Source: Cochliopodium minus (lineage: Eukaryota; Discosea; Himatismenida; Cochliopodiidae). From it: a DNA stretch of 61,037 nt. The notes under the pieces are model-generated. The model made no database searches. It saw only the letters and a list, made by a program, of their open reading frames with translations, and was not told the DNA's origin. Positions 7,716-49,893 of the stretch are shown here, one piece after another (the first letter of the stretch is position 1; each line of letters starts with the position of its first letter). A program made the translations under genes and the position numbers. The DNA lies in the NCBI GenBank assembly GCA_024220525.1, contig JAMYWO010000204.1:2979-64015 (forward strand). The letters are read 5' to 3'.

Positions 7716-10700
7716 TTAAAAAACACCCATTCCAATGTTTTCTCTGAAAGTGAGCAAAACAAACTTTCCTTTTCTCTCATCAAAACCAAAAATAAAGAGA
7801 CCCTTAGCATGAACAGTAGGAGAGCTGCCAAAAGCACCCTTAGTAGCACCCTCAACGAAACCAAAAGTCTTCTCAACAGTGAGGCCAGATTGTTTCTTTT
7901 TCTCCTCCTCCTCCTTCTCCTTCTTGAGCTTCTCCTCTCCTTCAAGTCTGAGCTTTTCTTTTTCAATTTCATCTTGTTGTTGTTGTTGTTCTTGTTGAGT
8001 ACCTTCAATAGAAGCTTTCTTCTCCTTCTCTTCTTTCTCTTTCTCTAGCTTCTCTTTCTTTTCTCTCTCTTCTTTCTCTTTCTTCTTCTTTGCCTCCTTC
8101 TTCATTTGCTCGACAGTTTGACCAGTTCTGACATCGATGACACCAACAGCAGTACGAATGTAATCGACTTGAACGATGATGATCTTTTGTCCATACTCTG
8201 GATCATCCCTTGCATCTATGATTTCTGCAAAAGCAGGTTGTTGGATGATTTGAGGCTTGACACCTTCTGCCTTCATGAAAGTGTTGAGTTGACTTTGCGC
8301 GTTTTCGAGATAATCTCCGCTGAAATAAGTCTTGAGTTTGTCCATCTCAAAGTTGTACCACATGGCGATAAAGTTGGGAAAGAAGGTTTTGTAGACGGAA
8401 TCAGAGAACTTCTCGAAAGTAAAGCCAGGATCGTGGAAGAAGATCATTTGGAACATCTTATCGAGATTACGCTTTTTCTCTTTGGAAGCCTTTCTCTTTT
8501 CTCTTTGTTGATCAATGACACGAAATGTGCTCGATGCTAATTGTAATAAAGGATTGTCACTGTTATCTGCTTTCTCCCTCAATTTTTTCATTCCAATTCC
8601 CAATTCATTCAAGTGAGTTTTCTCAGACAAGACACCAAAAAAAGTATCTTCGTCTTTTTTTTTGTTGAGGTTGTTATCATCAGAAATGACCACTTGTCCA
8701 GACATAGGATGATCAGAAGGAAGAGGAGCAATGTCGTCGCTATATCTCAAATCGTTGAAAATGAGATCCATGTCCAATCTCTTCATTCTAACTTCTTTAG
8801 GTGTATCGTTGGGGATGACATAAGGAGTCAAGATCTTCAAAAAGTCGATTCCCTCCAACTCTCTCTTCTTTCTCAATTGTTCCTCCTTTAACTTTTCAAG
8901 CTTGTCCTTCTCTTGCAATTCTTTTTCTTCTTGTATCTTCAAAATCTCAGATTCATCTTCTACTCCTGTCAATATTTTTAAGCGCATGATCTCTCTTTCT
9001 TTTTCCACTCTTTTGGTCAAGGATTCCTCGAGAGATTTCTTGACAACTCCATCCATAGAAGAAAAGAGAAAGCTTCCAAATGAATCGATGGAATAATCGT
9101 TGTTGATCTTGTCCATGATTTTCTCGAGAGATTCTCTCTTCAAAGCCTTCAAATCAGTCTGCCATTCTTCAGGAGACGAAGCAACAAGATTTTCAAATTC
9201 ATAATCATTCAACTGATTGATCATGTGATGAGTTTGTCTCACTCTCTTTGTGAAATAGAACAATGGAGCAGAGTCGATGTATTGATTGAGCAAGCCAGGA
9301 TCCATTTCTGCTTCTTCCAACAAACTCTCTTGGAGGGTTAATTGCTCGTTAAGAAAAGAGATGACAGATTGTTTCTCATAAGGCGTCAATTCGTCATCTC
9401 CAGTAGAAAGAGAGACGCTTTGAGATTGGTTGAGGTAGAGTCTCTTTCTTTGGTTGATGATCTCCAATTTAGATCCCAATGCATGTTTAGCAAAAACTTC
9501 ACTTTCCGTGGTGCTCTTTGAGATCACGTTTTTTTGTTTCATTGGCAAGGTCTTTCTACCACTCAACCCCAAGATTTGTTGTTCAAAAGATCTGAGATTC
9601 TCAGTAGTTTCATCGATGATTTGAACAAGATCTTCCTCCTTTCTTATCTCCTCTTTGTGTTCCTGTTCGTGCAAGTCTCTTGAAAACTTTAGAATCTTTT
9701 TCATGTTGAAGAGGATTCCCATTTCTCTCTTGATCTCTTGGTATTTCAAGTAAGAATGCTCTACATTGGTGTCAACAGAAATAGAAGACATCTCTTGGTG
9801 CAAATTTTCAAACTTTTTTTCAACAAGCACTTGAGCAAGATCCAAGAATTCCTGGGAAAGGTTTTCTTCCTCTTTGTTCAACTTTTCTTCCAACAATGCA
9901 ACTTTTTCTTTCTTCTTGTTTGCCTTCTCTAACATTTTGGTGACAGGCATCATCAAATCATCTTTTCTTTGCTCCATGTAATTTTCAAAGTAAGAATCAT
10001 GAAGTTTGTGCCATCTGGTAGACCAAGGATCCTCAAAATTCAAGATAAAGTCTTTGTAATCAGGATGTGCATCAATTTTACTCCACTTTGCAGTAAACTT
10101 TTCATATCTCTTTGTGTACTGATCATCATCTATTTTAAGTTTAGGTTTGAAGATATTATCAGTTTCTCTCAACAATTGAAATTCTTCAGTAGACAAGGTT
10201 GGATACATCCTTTTGAAAATTTCCTCATCTTGCATCATGTCAGTGATAAGAGCCTTGAATTTAGAGTAATAAGGGTCTTCCCAGTCGATTGCAGGCCAAC
10301 TGTTACCAATACGCAAAACGTGAAAGTTGAAAGGACGAATTCTAGAATGTTTAGGTTGGTGAAACTTTTCAGGCAACCCGAAAAACTTTGGAATGTAAGG
10401 AGGAAAGTAAGTTCTCTTATAAAACCCAGGATAATTGTAGCAATGCTTGAACGCTTCCTTTCTGAGCTGTTTGATATCTGTGGGCACTTTGTGTCCTTTT
10501 TCAATGCAATAATCCTTGTACCTCTTGATGAAGACTTCCATGATGTTCAATCTCTCCATCATATTAACATAGTCAGGATGGGTCATTCTGTACTCGTACA
10601 AGTAGTTGTCCAAATCGGTAGCATCTTTGATAGGAGGAGCTGGATTATGCAAACCACTGTACTTACTCTTAGTCAAAAGGTGACCCACCTTGATGATTGG

Positions 10701-12781
10701 TTTTAATCCTTCCCTGGTGAACTCTAATGCGTGTTGCTTTTTAAAAACAAATTAAAGTTGGATTCATAAAATAAGAAAAGTGAAAAGGATACCTGTCTTG
10801 CAAGTTGTTCTTCCTTTGAAACATAGACCAAGAGAGACATTTGAGCACTTCTTTGGTAATAAGTCCTTGACATAAGATGGTCCATGATTTCGGGGTATTG
10901 CAAAGGCAAAAGATAATCTTCGATATCAATCACATATTTTTCAGAAACATAAGTACCTTCAGCTTCTCTCACCTTTTTATCTTCCTCTTCTTCAATTTCT
11001 TTCGAATAACGGCGGTAAGTATTATTATCAATGGTGACGATAGGTCCAGTTTGTCTTTTGAATTCTACAAAACAATCTCTTACTTTTTGCATGTCTACTT
11101 TTGGGTACATCTCTTCAAATTTTTCGAAATTAGGTTGTCCATTATTGTATTCCATGTAGTATTCTACGTCATCAATTTTGAGTTTTTCTGTGTAATCTCC
11201 CAAGAAATCACGTTCCTCACCATTATCTTCAGTAGCATCAGAGATGGTGTATGAACTATTTTCGTCATTTATCACTTTTCTTGAAGAAGTGTTTAGAGTT
11301 TCAGTATCCGTTGCACCTTCTTGATTTAATTTTTCTTCTTGTTTCTGCTTTTCTTCTTGTTTACCTTGGTTCACCATATTTAAAATATCGTTCTGTTTCT
11401 CTTGCCTTTCTTTCATGGCCTTTTCTTCTTCAGTTGGCTCCTCCACCTTGACTACTTTCAAAAAAGAAGCGGGTCTGTAAAAAGCAGTATCATCTATCTC
11501 ATCCAAAGATTCTACCCATTCAGTGAATTGCTCTCTCAATATTCTTGAATCCCTCACGATATTTTTGTGAAATTCCATATCAGTTTCAACATACCCAAAA
11601 GGATTATAAGGTCCCCAGTTGTGGCTAACATCACCATCCTCATAAAGGAAAACCTAAATATATATATTTAATTAATTATGTTTGAAAGAAATAGGCAAAA
11701 GAATTTGTTTGGGATATCAAATAATCAATCAATATCTTGTGGAATTAATTATTAAAAATTATTTTTACAGATTTTTCGTGCTTGGTCTCTTTGACTTCTT
11801 CAATTTTGAAATCATAAGTTTTTCCTTCATTACTCTCCTCAGCTAAGACATCAAGATCCATATAATCTTTCTCGCCCTTGTAATCAAAAGGATTATCCCT
11901 GAGATAGCCAAGATATCTGGTCTCACCAGAATAGACAATCAATCCAACCTCGTTATGCTCAGTCAAAAACATTCTCCTTTTGATATGCTCCCAATTTTTA
12001 AGAGTATTTCTGACAGAATCTTGATCCTTTCCTTCTTCCTTCATAACAAATTTTCTGAGCATCTTTTCTTCCATCCATAGGGCGAAATTCTCAATTTTAT
12101 CTGCTACTCTCAAGTAGTAGAATAATAACAATGGTGCTCCTACAAGCTCAGTGGTTGGGATATATTGGGATTGTTTATATCTTCTCCTGAATACATCCGA
12201 ATATTTATCAAGCACATCATCTTTCTGCATTTGCGCCAAATCATCTTCATAACTCTTGATTGGTTTTCTGATGAAATTTGCTGCTTCTTTGATTGATAGT
12301 CTCATTCTGAATGAATGAATTGAGAAGTTGTCCATAAAGAAAGTATAACCACTATATTTTCCAATGAACTTTGATATTTTGGTGGAATGTCTTGGTATCT
12401 CTTCTATCCATTCTCTTGCTTGATTTAATCTCTTAGGTATACTGTATCTATTCATAAATTTATCTCTGCTCTCTTTGAAATTATCAATCTTTTCTTTCAA
12501 TTCTGGATCTTTATTCACATTTTCTTTCAATTGATATTTGAATGTATCCCAAAAAGCAAAGTTTCTATGAATGATATGATTTTTTACTAATGGAGAGTTT
12601 ATCTTGTTAATATTCTCCTTTTTCTATTTAATTATGTAGATATATATTAAAAGGAGGATGATCAAAGGAATGAGACAAAAATTAAATATTTTTTGAGATA
12701 TTTTGGAGAATATGAACTTACCAAATTATTATCCAATAATTTCTTATGAATATTAGCATTGTTTTTGAATATTTTTTGCAT
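7716..12781 (-). CDS. Very large protein with C-terminal Tim44-like domain
   Basis: Exons 12722-12781, 11769-12623, 10793-11653 and 7716-10736 (60, 855, 861, 3021 nt) are all phase 0 and give 1598 residues. The start MQKIFKNNANIHKK is basic and lacks acids, as in a mitochondrial presequence (inference). Residues about 1-1000 are unrecognised, rich in Tyr, Trp and charged residues (e.g. PYNPFGY, YNYPGFYKRTYFPPY). Long coiled coils follow (about 850-930 and 1180-1240). Residues about 1360-1470 look like the Tim44/mL45 fold (MIFFHDPGFTFEKF, FFPNFIAMWYNFEMDKLKTY, VDYIRTAVGVIDVRTG). A K/E-rich stretch with a Q run (about 1468-1540) then splits that domain from its last strands (KGLFIFGFDERKGKF). 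Possible roles are mitoribosome (mL45-like), import motor or a lineage-specific complex; the domain call is moderate, the function open. Confidence 0.72.
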
Positions 12782-14534: not shown

Positions 14535-15116
14535 ATGGATAGTATTATTGGATTTGTTGGAAAAGATTATGTATTAATAGCAGCAGATACCATGCAAACA
14601 AGATCTATAGTGGTGATGAAAAATAATTTGGATAAAGTATTGGTATTGGATGAATACAAGTTGTTATCATGTGTAGATTTGTCAGCAGGAGATAGAGATC
14701 ATTTCAGCGATTATATACAAAGGAATTTGCATTTCTACGAATTGAAAAACGACAAGAAATTATCAACCAATGCAACAGCAAACTACACAAGAAGAGAATT
14801 GGCAAATGCACTGAGAAGCAGAAATCCATATAATGTCAATATTTTATTGGGAGGAGTAGATAAAGGTATCCCATCCTTGTATTACATTGATTATCTCGCA
14901 TCATCTAACAAACTTAATTTCGGAGCACATGGCTACTGTTCTTACTTTGTATTGTCGATCTTTGATAAATATTGGAAGAGCGATATGTCCTTGGAGGAGG
15001 GAAAGCAATTGCTCAAGAGAATCATCGAGGAGATCCACAAACGCTTCTCCTTCAATCAGGCTAATTTCACTGTCAAAATTGTTGATAAGGATGGTGCCAG
15101 AGAAATTAAACTCTGA
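14535..15116 (+). CDS. PSMB2: 20S proteasome subunit beta type-2 (beta4)
   Basis: An intronless gene of 193 residues starting MDSIIGFVGKDYVLIAADT. This is the direct, propeptide-free start typical of the non-catalytic beta4/PSMB2 subunit: the catalytic Thr1 is absent, and the first strand with the AADT element is present. Other family marks are NLHFYELKN, YTRRELANALRSRNPYNVN (split here by positions near residues 84-102) and LLGGVDKGIPSLYYIDY. Known role: a structural member of the inner beta ring of the 20S core in cytosol and nucleus. The length matches the family. It is one of the few genes here without introns. Confidence 0.97.
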   Translation: MDSIIGFVGKDYVLIAADTMQTRSIVVMKNNLDKVLVLDEYKLLSCVDLSAGDRDHFSDYIQRNLHFYELKNDKKLSTNATANYTRRELANALRSRNPYNVNILLGGVDKGIPSLYYIDYLASSNKLNFGAHGYCSYFVLSIFDKYWKSDMSLEEGKQLLKRIIEEIHKRFSFNQANFTVKIVDKDGAREIKL

Positions 15117-34407: not shown

Positions 34408-37400
34408 ATGGATGAAAGAGAGATTCTATTGGAGGACAATATTAGATTAGAAGAGAAAGAAAATGAAAATTTCAATCGATCATTTTGGAAGGAGAGTAAA
34501 GATAGAATTGAATATCTCACTAGCAGCTCGCATCTCAATAATAATGCGACAAATTGTGCAATATTGATTGAAAAATATAAATTAAAGCAAGATAATTTAG
34601 TATTGGAGAATATTCCCAAGATAGCATCCAATGAATCCATCATCAATGTTTACAATCAATTATCATCTTTGAAATTTCTCAAAGAGAAGAAAATGAGCCT
34701 CATTCCCAAGGATGCTAATGGATGGAAGGAAATTCAAGAGGCAAATTTAAATCAGATACCTCCATATAAAAAGATTTTCTTCACATTGTATTCATTTTCG
34801 CCATATGTAAAAAAATTGGAGATAGAGGTAAATTAAATCATCATTTATAATCAATACATATCCAAAATATAAATAATCAACCAAATAAAAATACTTTATA
34901 ATATCATTATAGGATCAAACATTAATAGATCCAGTTGATTTGAATAAATATTTTGTGAAATTAGAAAAAGCATTGAAAGACATGCCTTGGATGTTGTTGC
35001 TAAATCTTAATGATATTGAAAATTATCTTAGATCTAAGAAATACAAATTGCCAGAGGAGATATATGAATGGGCATCAGAAATGATTACCAAATATCTCAT
35101 TGAATATTCCCAAAATTTCAATTTCCCCAAACTGGAAGATATCTATGACAAGAATCAAGAAAAATTGAAAAAATTGGAGTACAAGGTAATGATATTTACT
35201 CTTGAATAATAGATAAAATCATTTTATAAAAAACATAATTTAAAGAACATGCCTAAACAACTTCCAGGGATATGTAGCGAGTTATATGAAATTGCAGCTC
35301 AAGCAAGAGTGTATTTGGGACTTCTTCAATGCGGAGGAGTTTTTCAGTCGCCTGTATATAAATCTAAAACAAAGTCTTTTCAAAACGATGAGTTAGAAGG
35401 ATCTCAAGAGTTTGCCAAAATAGGTGAAAAAGAAATTCCATTTTTGGAGAAATATATTTTTCTCGCAGATAAGATTGACAGTTATGTACATGCTTTGGAC
35501 ATGGTATCTATAATCGCTGACCCAACCAAATCTTTGACATTAATCATAGGGGAGTTTGGAAATCTTCATATCGAAGAAAGGAACCTAATCAAGTCTGAAA
35601 GAAAGTTACCCAATTCTTATTCTAGAGTTGTTAGTTTGTTTGGTAATTCTCAATGTGGAAAAAGTTTTCTTTTGGCCCATCTGATGGAAGAGAAAGAGAA
35701 TCCAAATCATTGTAAAAAAAATTTTATTTTTTAACAAAAATTAAATTTTATAAATTTTTAGTCTCTGATGGAATTGATACTAAAACATTGAATGTACATC
35801 TGTTTGATTCCAAAATGAACTTGAAACATTTCAAAGGAAGAATAAACTATTCCACCAGACTCATTAGGTTTTTGGATACAGAAGGTCTCAATCCTAAAAA
35901 GGAAATGACAAACAAATTTTTTTCAAACAGATCCCAATCCAAAGAAAGGCTAGAGAAAATAAAGCAGCTCCCAAGTGTTTTGAGTGTATTGAGTGATGTT
36001 GTAATCTATGTGGCTGATGGGAACATTTTTGATAACAAGTTTCTTTACCAAGGTCTTTTAGAATTTGTGAATGGTTGCCAAAAGAATGTTGAAACTATTT
36101 TTTGTACATCTCTGATCATCATTCAAAATGGATTGGATCTGGAAGATACCATTCAACCAATAGAAGTCACAACCAAAAGATTTTTGAATGAACTTGACAA
36201 GAATAAGGAAGTTTCGAAGAATTATCTAAATGTTGTTTGTGCAAATTTCCCAAGAGTAGATACAAATGTGAAGAAATTTGATCTTTTTCTTGAAAGAATG
36301 GAGGAGTTAAAAATAAAGTTGGAACTATTTCTTGAAGAATCATCAGAGTTCAAAAAAAATCATGACTTAATGGCAACAAGAAAATCTTGGTAAAATATTT
36401 TACATTTTAAATAATTCAATATTCAAATTTTCATTATTATAAAGGGGTATTGTGTTGAGAAAGATTATATCAACCCATTCAGAAAACCAACAACTCCAAA
36501 TTGGAAATTTCTTGTCACATAACTTTGTTCCGGAAAGTAACAACGTTATGATTGCGTACTACTACTTCAACACTCTATTCACAGAAGTCAAATCAAAGAA
36601 AAAGAGCAATTTGGAGCATTTCAAAAGATCTAGATTGGCAGGCATCAAAATGTTGGCAATTTTACATACGAAAGAGAAAATAGAGTTGGAAAAGAGGGAA
36701 ATTTCAAAGATCCATTCGAGATACACCGAAGAAATTATCCAACTTATACAAGAAATGTGCAGACTCATGCCTTGTTCAAGCAGAAAACCTAGTGTTCAAA
36801 GATTGGATCCTGTTTATTGCAATCAGACTTGGAGTTCACACAACAAGGGACACAGAGCAACATATATCTCATCTGGTATTTTCAAACAAGAGAAGGAGGC
36901 AAATTGGGAAGGAAATTTCGAAGGGGGAGAAGATTCTTTTTTGCATCCAAAAATGGAGAGGAGTACTCTCAAGGTTCCTCACTTGGATAAGCTCAATTAT
37001 GATAACATGGTCAACCAAGCAAATGAAAGATTTATAAGCATAACGAATAATGATGGGAAAAAGGAGAAGAACTACAATTGGTTCAGACATGTCATCAGTA
37101 TTCACCAAAACATTAACGATTGGGAAACATCAGAGCTGGTAGAACTTGTTTTGGATAACGAAATTTGTTTTATTTGCCAAACCAATCAAATCAACAATAG
37201 AATTGCTCCTTGTGGACACATTGTATGTGATACCTGCCTAAATCTCCAACTTTCTATCGAGATGGTTTGTCCTCTTTGCAAGACACCCACCAGCTCCTCC
37301 AAGATCATCTCTTTCCAAATTGTATCAAGTGATCCTAATGTACTTTCTCATCAATATCTCAAGAAACTCAAATCTAATCTCGAATTGGAAAAGAAAAGAC

Positions 37401-40400
37401 CCATCAACAAAATTGTCATTTCTGTTGTTGGAAATTTCAATGAAGATTTCTGCAAATTTCTTCGACAAAAACTTCAAACGAGGCTTGATTATTACACTGA
37501 TGGTTTCCACATCAAAGCCAACCTTGGTTTGTTCCTATTTTGTTTACTTACAAAGAATGGATCAAGTTTTAGATGTAGCAGAACTTCCAATCCAATTGAT
37601 CGTTCCATAATCTACGAATTCTGCGATTATCTTGTTGTTCATTACAATTCAAACGAACCCATCGAAAACTTTGCCATAAGTGCTTATATCAGCTCTGATC
37701 TCATCATTTGGCTTGGAAAAAAACAAAAATGGGAAGCAGTCATACCAACATCATGCAAACAGCAATTCGAAGTTCAAAGTAATATTAATTCTTCATAAAT
37801 TCTTCAAATATTTCATAAATTCATTCATTCATTTTTAGATATGGAAGTTATTGTACCAAAGATAACTGAAGAATTGATCTTACAAGGAGATGTAGGACTT
37901 GAATTTTACAAGAGAGAATTGGAAGCATGGCTGATCAGCACTTTTAGAAATAACTTGAAGGATATTCTCTTCAACTTGAATACCAAGAGACCTCAGCCTG
38001 AAAACCCAAGATTCTTCAGCAATCATTACGTAATAGATAATATGTTGAAAGTTTCTCTTGTGAGCGCATCTCAATTTGAAAGAGAAATAAAAATATTCCA
38101 TCCCAATGTTTGTTACTCTCAAAATAAGAAGATATTCGTCTATACTCCCTCCATCCATAAATTGATCACCTTCTTTGAATTTTTCTATGCAAAAACAAGG
38201 AAGGAAACTTATTCTTACCAACTCATTTGGAGACCCATCTTTATTAGAACTCTCAACATAATGGCTTTGGAGTTCAAAGAAAACGAGAACATCATCAACT
38301 ATTACCACAAAATTTTTGAGGAAGATCTTCTCCCTACTTTTGATAAATGGAACCAAGAATGGCAGCATTACACTTTAAATAACGAAAGTTACAAAAAGAT
38401 GTCATCTTCTTACTATTCTCAACAATTCAAAAATGAATGGATTAAAAAAATTAGCCAAGATTCTGCGCTGAAAGACCTTTCTGTAGAGAATCTTTTTGAA
38501 AAAGAATGGTTTGTGAGTTTGGCTTACTTGGAAAACAATGAACAACTCAGGGATTCCTACAGCACTCTCATCTATAGTGAAATCATGAAACAATTCAATG
38601 CATGTAACTGTTGTGCAAGTCCTTTTGTCATTACTTACGAATGTGGACACAAGTTTTGTAAAAAGTGCGAAGATGACAAGGAAATTCTCGACAAGTTGGG
38701 AATAAAAGTTCCTAACACCCATTATCAAGTAAACTATTTTCGTTGTATGATCTGTAACCAAATACAGCTCAATTCCATCAAAAACTATCTCAATTATCAT
38801 GTGAACAGAGAGAAAATCAACCTTTCTGTTGTTGCTCAATCTAACAACGAACTTGTTGTAAATGAAAGTGAAGAACAAAAGTTGATAAACAAGATGAGAA
38901 AGCTTTACAAGCTGTTCAGAGATGACAGAGTCAGTTTCACAAAAAAGATCATCCCCTTCAAAGAAATACAACTTGATAGAGATACATTTGGGATCAATCA
39001 TGTCATCTTCACTAAATTTCAAAATCCAAAAAGAAAAGAGAAGGATAAGAACAATTTTGCTGCTGTAAAGTTTTACAATATCAAGCAGGGGGACAAGGAG
39101 TTTATGGATTGGTTCAAGGAGACTCTGGGAATCAATTCTATTTTGGAAGTGACAGAAGTTTTGGGAGTTCACTTTGCAAATGAATCACTTTTCAAATCTC
39201 AAAAAACATTTGATGAAATCAAGTTTGATATTCCAAAGAAAGAGAATTCTATGAAGCACTCATCTTCCTTAAAACTTTCCAAAGAAACAAATCTCATTTT
39301 TATCAACGCAGGAAAGAACGAAGAAGATCTAATCACAATAGAAATGCTTCCTAACAGTGTCTGGACAAATATTCTCCATTACCTAAACGACAAAGAAATA
39401 AACAACCTATCTAAAACATGCAAAGAAATAAGGTGGTTGGTTTCTAGAAATGGAGACAACAACTTTTGTTGGAAAATGAGGATTCACATGAAACACTTTA
39501 TTGTATTACCCAAATACAAAAATTCTCTCACTTCTTTGTTATGGAACAGAAACAGCAAGCTAAAGTATTACCAGATTATCAAATACATGCTCCAAATTGC
39601 CAATCTCAACTTACAACTACACAATATAGGAATCTCTAGCTACAATATTCTACCAGACAATATATTCATCAATGAACATGACAATGCAAAGTTGAATATC
39701 TTTTGTTACAAACGTGCTTACAAACCTTTTTCTCCTTTTCTTTATAGACATAACGGAAAACATTATTTCGATCCCAAAATAAACATCAAAAACTTTGGAC
39801 ATCTTCTTCATCTCGTTTTCAACAGATTTTTCATTCCAACAGGGGAGCGTTTTGAGAAATGGATGAATTTCAACCAAAACAATACACATGTATCTGATAT
39901 CCTTCCTTCTTCTATCAAAAACCTCATTTTGCAATGCACTGCTGTCACTTGCGATTTTCAACATATAGTTTCTCATCTCTCCTTTCTCACCGTAGATTAT
40001 GACTTCAAAATCTCCACAGAAGTTCTAAGATTTCACAACAACCCTCTCTCCTCCGAATGGCAAAGTTCAGAATGGTACTCTCTCTGGCAAAGTTACTCCA
40101 ACATAAACTCCCAAGACATCTTAATTGCAAAATCCAAAGAAGATCTCAAAAAGTATCTCCCTATCTTCTTCAACGATATCCTCATCGTAAAGATTGTAGA
40201 TTATTTCAAAGATTGGATGCAGAATCTCGCCAATTTTGAACTGATGGAAAACATTCTCTTTTTTCTCAACCTCCTCACCACTTTCATCGTCCAGAAATAC
40301 TCCCTCAAAAAATCCTACAAGCTCAAAGACTTTGTCAGAAAAAATGTGGAGACTTTTCTGTTCGACATCAACTTTGGTAAAGCTCTTTTCACCATTGTAC

Positions 40401-41396
40401 AGCAGAATCAAAAGTACAACGATCTTGTACTCAATGAGAAACTTAATTCTCTAAGAAATGTTGTTGGAAATCCCACATCAGATTCTCAATCCATATATCT
40501 TAATCCAAAATGCAAAAAATTCAAGGTTAAAATCCAAATTTTTAATTTTCTAAATTTATTATTTTTTTATTTAGGATATTCTATTTGACCAAAATTTTTT
40601 ATCTCCTCTGTCCATCTTGCAACAATTTTGTGATGAATTCGTTCCCTACAAAAAAGCAATGCTCCTTGAAAAACTCTATGGACAGTTGGAAAAAGTACTT
40701 GGAGAATCCAAGCTAATCGTAAAAAAAAACTATTAGAAATGATTTTTTGAATTATCTCTTTTTTTTTTATTTTTAAATACATTTTTAGAAAGGTGATTTT
40801 GGATCAGATGTTACTAATCCAGTCTTCCAATTTTGGTGTGTTATGAGCAAATGTGAAAATCTCTTCTCACACATCTACTATACAAAAAAGTTTTTTGGAT
40901 GTTGGAAAGATCAGAACAAATTTTCATCTTCTGTTTTGAAATGTGAGGGACTTTTGACCAAATTCAAAGTGATCCTCAAAACTTTGAGTAGTTCTTACGA
41001 CAGCTCAGTTATTGACGAAAAAGGAACTTTGGATCCTTTGGAGTACAGGTTTTATGAGTCATTGGAAGAGTTATGCCCAAATATACAAGGTATTGTTGAA
41101 CTTTTTTTTGATTTTAATTCATTTCTTATTTTGTTAAAAAAGGTTTGCAAGGAAGAGATAAACGTATTTGTTCTCACATTGTCAGTTTGGCTTGTTTTTA
41201 CTCAAATAAAGGAGAGAAGGTACTTGTTAAATGTGATTGCCTCGATCATTGGGAACATACTGACTCAATCACCTCTCTTTTTGAAAAGTTTGGAATCATT
41301 ATTGAAAAATTGAAAGATAATTACTATGTTTCAAGAAAAACAAACTATCCTATCTCTTATTTCTTAATTTTGTTTGGTGATTTGTTAAAAAATTAA
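34408..41396 (+). CDS. Giant fusion: P-loop GTPase-like, RING, second RING-like, pseudokinase split by an F-box
   Basis: Nine exons (34408-34827, 34913-35185, 35246-35711, 35762-36389, 36445-37778, 37839-40525, 40575-40718, 40789-41089, 41143-41396) join in phase to 6507 nt, 2168 residues. Residues 364-371 are a P-loop (GNSQCGKS); 425-428 is DTEG, the switch signature of GBP/atlastin/RHD3-type GTPases. Residues 838-875 are a canonical C3HC4 RING (CFIC, APCGH, CDTC, CPLC). Residues about 1296-1346 are a second zinc finger with CNCC, ECGHKFCKKC and CMIC. About 1412-1486 resembles a kinase N-lobe with a VAIK-type lysine (FAAVKFY, K1451). About 1542-1589 is an F-box (LPNSVWTNILHYLNDKEI). About 1601-1740 resumes a kinase C-lobe whose HRD and DFG are replaced (GISSYNILPDNI, LNIFCYK). 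Residues beyond 1740 are unrecognised. Probably a large ubiquitin-ligase-type protein controlled by a nucleotide switch (inference). Confidence 0.82.

Positions 41397-47857: not shown

Positions 47858-49893
<2,036 letters not shown>

Follow-up and report, generated by a model that had tools for sequence, protein, structure and literature searches.

We analysed a stretch of 61,037 nucleotides of the Cochliopodium minus genome (contig JAMYWO010000204.1, positions 2,979 to 64,015), hereafter the window, in which a predicted gene of nine exons on the forward strand would encode a protein of 2168 residues. On this one predicted chain, a GTPase-like domain is followed by two RING-type fingers, an F-box and what appears to be the C-terminal lobe of a pseudokinase, with a stretch resembling a VPS9 domain near the C-terminus (Table 1). 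The G+C content of the window ranges from 19 to 38%, and its introns are short and AT-rich; those of the gene measure 49-85 nucleotides and have 6-17% G+C, against 29-36% in the exons. An alternative in-frame acceptor in intron 8 would yield a product of 2165 residues. The host-genome searches reported below covered 44.65 Mb in 598 contigs, the window lying on contig C204.

Table 1. Predicted gene and features of its product (positions in the window; residues of the 2168-residue protein).
Feature	Position	Strand	Residues	Basis or remark
Predicted gene, nine exons	34408..41396	+	1-2168	GT..AG splicing, single terminal stop
Exons 1-5	34408-34827, 34913-35185, 35246-35711, 35762-36389, 36445-37778	+		
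Exons 6-9	37839-40525, 40575-40718, 40789-41089, 41143-41396	+		
Intron 2, or intergenic gap	35186..35245	+		60 nucleotides; in-frame ATG after it at 35249
GTPase-like domain	35588..36389	+	346-596	MMR_HSR1 match below cut-off, hhalign; spans intron 35712-35761
G1/P-loop, GNSQCGKS	35642..35665	+	364-371	Motif
G3, DTEG	35875..35886	+	425-428	Motif
G4-like, NGLD	36127..36138	+	509-512	Motif, in IIIQNGLDLED
RING1, C3HC4	37166..37279	+	837-874	Pfam zf-C3HC4_3, ligand spacing
Intron 5, or intergenic gap	37779..37838	+		60 nucleotides; in-frame ATG after it at 37841
RING2	38603..38755	+	1296-1346	C3HC4 spacing, 25-residue loop before last C-x2-C
AAVK, earlier 'conserved Lys'	39059..39070	+	1448-1451	N-lobe unsupported by profile
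F-box	39341..39433	+	1542-1572	Pfam PF00646
Pseudokinase C-lobe	39494..39943	+	1593-1742	hhalign against host-genome kinases
VPS9-like stretch	40617..40902	+	1951-2022	Pfam match below cut-off; spans intron 40719-40788

RING1 passes the Pfam cut-off for zf-C3HC4_3 (35.7 bits, E = 7.7e-9, cut-off 27), and together with its ligand spacing this bears out an earlier note on this DNA, in which it had been called a canonical C3HC4 RING. The F-box claimed in the same note is likewise confirmed by PF00646, by a narrow pass on the protein (21.7 bits, or 24.3 in a shorter query, cut-off 20.5) and with 28.1 bits in the genome search; the related F-box-like family PF12937 stays below its cut-off (23.3 bits at best, cut-off 24.3). 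The second finger had been described as RING-like with an extended loop. The finger, its complete C3HC4 spacing and the 25-residue loop are all present, but it passes no RING cut-off, and we treat it as a RING-like candidate. Both RINGs fit a consensus that arose in none of 5000 shuffles of the protein.

F-box genes abound in the host genome, with at least 150 matches (150 scored among 481 first-look candidates). On the minus strand of contig C228 (locus L045, 1500-8500), an F-box exon precedes a RING exon of the same strand, both within about 600 bp, and the two perhaps encode a small F-box-RING protein. A candidate second RING-F-box gene on contig C526 was rejected because, by eye, the RING frame ends and a new ATG follows.

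In the GTPase-like domain the motifs G1, G3 and G4 stand in order. This ordered set was found in 2 of 5000 shuffles, with spacing windows that were fixed after the protein had been seen, and a lone P-loop in 97 of 5000. When aligned by hhalign with a profile of three dynamin-family GTPases of the host genome (on contigs C215, C239 and C167; the five matches of the family search lay at these and at one further place, on C191, which was omitted as below cut-off), the domain gave 66.8% and a score of 37.0, values that 150 shuffles did not approach (at most 2.5% and 21.5). The ordered motifs and the profile match support membership of the domain in the wider class of P-loop GTPases.

The domain had been described earlier as being of GBP/atlastin/RHD3 style. 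The likeness consists of the P-loop, the DTEG switch and the match, over G1-G3, to the profile of host-genome dynamin-family GTPases. An RD motif at G4 is the mark of the GBP/atlastin/RHD3 family, however, and the studied protein has NGLD where the canonical GBP of the host genome has LVRDF; by this mark it is therefore not a GBP. No GBP or RHD3 family was seen in Pfam at E up to 10, a range in which the filters of HMMER drop most weak matches, and the protein was not among the five matches of a GBP-family search of the host genome in which exons were read singly. Used as a query in that genome, the GTPase segment found itself alone; against the PDB by sequence, its best match was the Rab protein Sec4 (E = 0.071), over the P-loop part. 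A second GTPase following RING1 was considered and rejected (0.1% by hhalign). On the minus strand of contig C167 (locus L017, 86471-89758) there is part of an open frame of 1581 residues with a GTPase that resembles URGCP/VLIG (Pfam URGCP_GTPase below cut-off, E = 1.5e-9), after which Cys/His-rich repeats can be recognised by eye.

The region around the F-box was compared with a profile of 16 host-genome kinases, chosen from 158 matches. The C-lobe was recovered by hhalign at 89.5% in the native region and at 80.3% in a construct from which the F-box had been removed; the latter scored 41.5, and its 200 shuffles remained at or below 23.0 and 3.4%. With the same set of kinases, HMMER scored the native region at 17.6 bits and the construct at 15.2 bits, and none of the 1962 construct shuffles that were scored (of 2000) reached 17.6 bits. 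Among the 248 open reading frames of the window, the exon-6 frame ranked first on this kinase hidden Markov model (HMM), with 14.8 bits against 10.9 for the next. In the alignment SYN takes the place of HRD and IFC that of DFG, so that the catalytic motifs are lost and the lobe lacks the marks of an active kinase.

These results uphold two parts of the earlier description, which had been of kinase lobes with a conserved Lys but without HRD or DFG, namely the C-lobe and the loss of the motifs. They do not uphold an N-lobe carrying the Lys: the AAVK stretch gave 0.2% by profile, and 73 of 150 shuffles did equally well or better. The one point in favour of an N-lobe is that, when the F-box and the linker were both removed, a weak Pfam kinase match extended through AAVK (15.5 bits, E = 0.011, as against 12.4 bits for the C-lobe alone); when the linker was kept there was no Pfam match, and swapping the order of the lobes cost about 4 bits (from 17.7 to 13.6). 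We thus read the region as a probable kinase-derived C-lobe behind an F-box, not as two lobes. Insertion of the F-box into a kinase hinge was rejected, as in the profile alignment beta-5 (HFIVLPKYKNSL) follows the F-box and no N-lobe is recognised ahead of it. Against the PDB by sequence, the best match of the kinase/F-box segment was Chk1 (E = 0.18), over the catalytic-loop part.

The match to VPS9 near the C-terminus is absent from the earlier note. Its Pfam E-value was 0.0019 in a piece of 1128 residues, 3.3e-4 in the C-terminal 369 residues and 4.9e-5 in a piece of 105 residues that was trimmed after the match was known, and its score of 24.1 bits at best lies below the cut-off of 27. On an HMM built from five stretches out of the 10 host-genome VPS9 matches listed, exon 8 ranked first among the 248 open reading frames of the window (8.7 bits, next 5.1); of 2000 shuffles, 1730 had a score, and all of these stayed below the 8.0 bits of the tail. 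Residues D1991 and P1995 stand at D-x3-P spacing and, placed by eye, fit Asp313 and Pro317 of Rabex-5, whose roles are given, with that of Tyr354, in the part of PMC4379102 drawn on here. By sequence, the C-terminal segment had no match in the PDB. We regard a C-terminal VPS9 domain as a lead, with the chances for and against it roughly even.

The nine exons had previously been said to close in phase and hence to form one gene. In-frame splicing to 2168 residues stands; the inference of one gene was too strongly worded, because in introns 2 and 5 the upstream frame stops inside the intron and an in-frame ATG follows the acceptor. Two or three tandem genes could have been misjoined at these places, namely one for a small protein (from 34408, with its stop at 35209), one for a GTPase-RING protein (from an ATG at 35249 or 34408, with its stop at 37798) and one for a protein with the RING-like finger, F-box, pseudokinase and VPS9-like parts (ATG at 37841 to 41396). 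Such an arrangement would fit the length of both introns, which at 60 nucleotides is a multiple of three, and the position of the two ATGs right behind the acceptors in a protein in which Met is scarce, at 1.7% of residues; at the remaining six junctions the next exon starts without an ATG. A-rich bases precede the ATG at 35249, as they do that at 34408, whereas the leader of the ATG at 37841 is T-rich (53% T, 27% A); leaders of the other ATGs compared vary widely, so that this evidence is weak and mixed. Against tandem genes, a donor and acceptor like those of intron 5 arose in 319 of 200000 composition-matched shuffles and those of intron 2 in 4012 of 200000, and a stricter poly-T pattern for intron 5 in 62 of 200000, figures that are indicative, as the patterns were picked after the introns had been seen. 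Moreover, the intergenic gaps would measure just about 40 nucleotides. The splice signals at introns 2 and 5 lead us to favour a single gene: both introns are very probably real, and a misjoining of tandem genes is quite unlikely.

With the whole protein as query, the host genome yielded eight matches at E up to 1, all of them the gene itself, in a search that scores first-look candidates only (nine of nine). Exon 6 alone had no confirmed relative among viral and prokaryotic contigs, and of two pieces searched against NCBIfam, one gave a single ABC-type P-loop match far below cut-off and the other none. Repeats of at least 30 bases were not found between 34000 and 42000, nor were repeats found when the protein was compared with itself. 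Among open-licence papers, judged by titles and the starts of abstracts, no description of this domain combination was found. Protist genomes often contain large fusions of domains that occur only once.

We consider the best reading to be that this eukaryotic microbe has a lineage-specific RING-type ubiquitin ligase of several domains, with no paralogue detected, and we give it about an even chance of being right. In such a protein the RINGs would recruit E2~ubiquitin and the F-box would bind Skp1, either as a way into a cullin complex or as a means of regulation by it. Substrates or partners could dock on the dead kinase lobe and on the sequence between domains, and the GTPase might drive assembly that depends on nucleotide, or target the protein to membranes. 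Should the VPS9-like tail be real, it may bind a Rab5-class GTPase and so bring the protein to endosomes or phagosomes. The presence of a second kinase/F-box gene in the same genome (see below) counts in favour of this reading. Control of ligase activity by GTP is possible; it is not the default, because in RNF112, the analogue that comes closest, GTPase and E3 activities are uncoupled according to the part of PMC12012479 drawn on here.

Several results weigh against such a ligase. The chain may in fact be split over two or three genes, though this is quite unlikely. The best Pfam match of the GTPase is MMR_HSR1, at E-values of 0.0055 and 0.0011 and 19.5 bits against a cut-off of 21.9; its profile alignment is limited to G1-G3, and set against the three profile members singly it gave 17.5, 3.5 and 1.6%. 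Every RING model in Pfam leaves RING2 below cut-off (best 16.7 against 25.2 bits), and a non-RING model, RNA_pol_N, scored slightly above the best of them (17.2 bits, also below cut-off). The Pfam kinase family Pkinase gave 12-16 bits against a cut-off of 31.7, and one of the 1962 scored shuffles matched the 15.2 bits of the construct. On the host-genome VPS9 HMM the full protein had 4.9 bits, under the 6.2 of the best tail shuffle; by hhalign VPS9 gave 2.4%, which one of 200 shuffles matched; and no catalytic Tyr is seen at the expected place, the position of Tyr354 apparently being taken, by eye, by Lys or Phe.

A simpler protein is also conceivable, a RING ligase like RNF112 with a GTPase resembling the dynamin family, in which the F-box, the kinase lobe and the VPS9-like tail have decayed or play a structural role, recruiting neither Skp1 nor Rab5. 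The pairing of a RING with a GTPase of this sort is known from RNF112 (PMC12012479, in part), and it would agree with this view that the F-box lies only 1-4 bits above cut-off by Pfam on the protein, that the kinase lobe is without catalytic residues, and that the VPS9 match falls short of the cut-off, with no Tyr seen at the expected place. The 28.1 bits of the F-box in the genome search argue the other way, and both a pseudokinase lobe and an F-box can dock partners without catalysis; we hold such a pared-down ligase to be somewhat unlikely. Codon-position G+C is undecided between working and decayed domains.

The earlier note had proposed a ubiquitin ligase that is self-contained and gated by nucleotide, for instance in innate defence. 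The chain as predicted does carry RING, F-box and GTPase modules, and GBP-type GTPases act in defence. Three observations, however, make the proposal highly improbable: the G4 motif places the GTPase outside the GBP clade, a Pfam scan of 17 open reading frames of the window, in which no defence library was used, recognised no defence gene, and the GTPase and E3 activities of RNF112 reportedly bear no relation to one another (PMC12012479, in part). Its label goes beyond the evidence, in which GTP binding, Skp1 binding and ligase activity are all predictions.

If the multidomain ligase is taken at its fullest, one polypeptide would hold a GTPase switch, two RINGs that recruit E2, an F-box that recruits Skp1 and lies beside a pseudokinase lobe, and a tail like a Rab5 guanine nucleotide exchange factor (GEF), and would be a self-assembling ubiquitin-and-traffic machine bound to endosomes or phagosomes, with no described counterpart; we rate this as unlikely. 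RING and F-box modules usually belong to separate proteins of an SCF (Skp1-cullin-F-box) complex. Were the joined gene model true, a GTPase and a dead kinase lobe would join them on one chain, and the coupling of these modules could be tested within a single protein.

Elsewhere in the window, a proteasome-subunit gene lies at 14535-15113 and a dihydrolipoamide-dehydrogenase-like gene, so named from its Pfam match, at 47858-48391; together with the short introns and the G+C content they identify the DNA as eukaryotic. Three long open frames of 1011, 309 and 292 residues occupy the minus strand at 7716-12623, in the stretch of highest G+C, and had no Pfam match at E up to 0.001. The whole window gave no Rfam match at gathering scores and no tRNA in a tRNA scan.

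Among known proteins, Rabex-5 combines a VPS9 Rab5 GEF with a ubiquitin-related zinc finger. The studied protein resembles it in the VPS9-like stretch near the C-terminus and the D-x3-P spacing, but differs in that the stretch is below the Pfam cut-off for VPS9 and Pfam finds no A20-type finger. Dictyostelium MEKK-alpha, a MEK kinase, carries a kinase, an F-box and WD40 repeats on one chain (PMC5666861, in part). Kinase-type and F-box modules share a chain in both proteins, whereas the studied protein has only a C-lobe, placed after the F-box and devoid of HRD and DFG, and has RINGs and a GTPase but no WD40 match in Pfam. A likeness to MEKK-alpha, as described in that part of PMC5666861, is also seen in a frame of 1008 residues on contig C158 of the host genome (locus L009, 2924-5947). 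It matches the kinase and F-box families, and by eye it begins with a PB1-like part and has WD40 repeats at its C-terminal end. RNF112 (ZNF179/neurolastin) has a C3HC4 RING and a dynamin-family GTPase in one chain, paired as in the studied protein; E3 activity is reported for it, and its efficient self-ubiquitination requires the GTPase and RING parts in one chain (PMC12012479, in part). Its RING is N-terminal, whereas in the studied protein the GTPase, with NGLD at G4, stands ahead of two RINGs, and an F-box, a kinase lobe and VPS9 go unmentioned for RNF112 in the part of PMC12012479 drawn on here. As it stands, the predicted protein appears to be a lineage-specific assembly of domains, each part of which has precedents, with RNF112 and MEKK-alpha providing them for parts of the combination.

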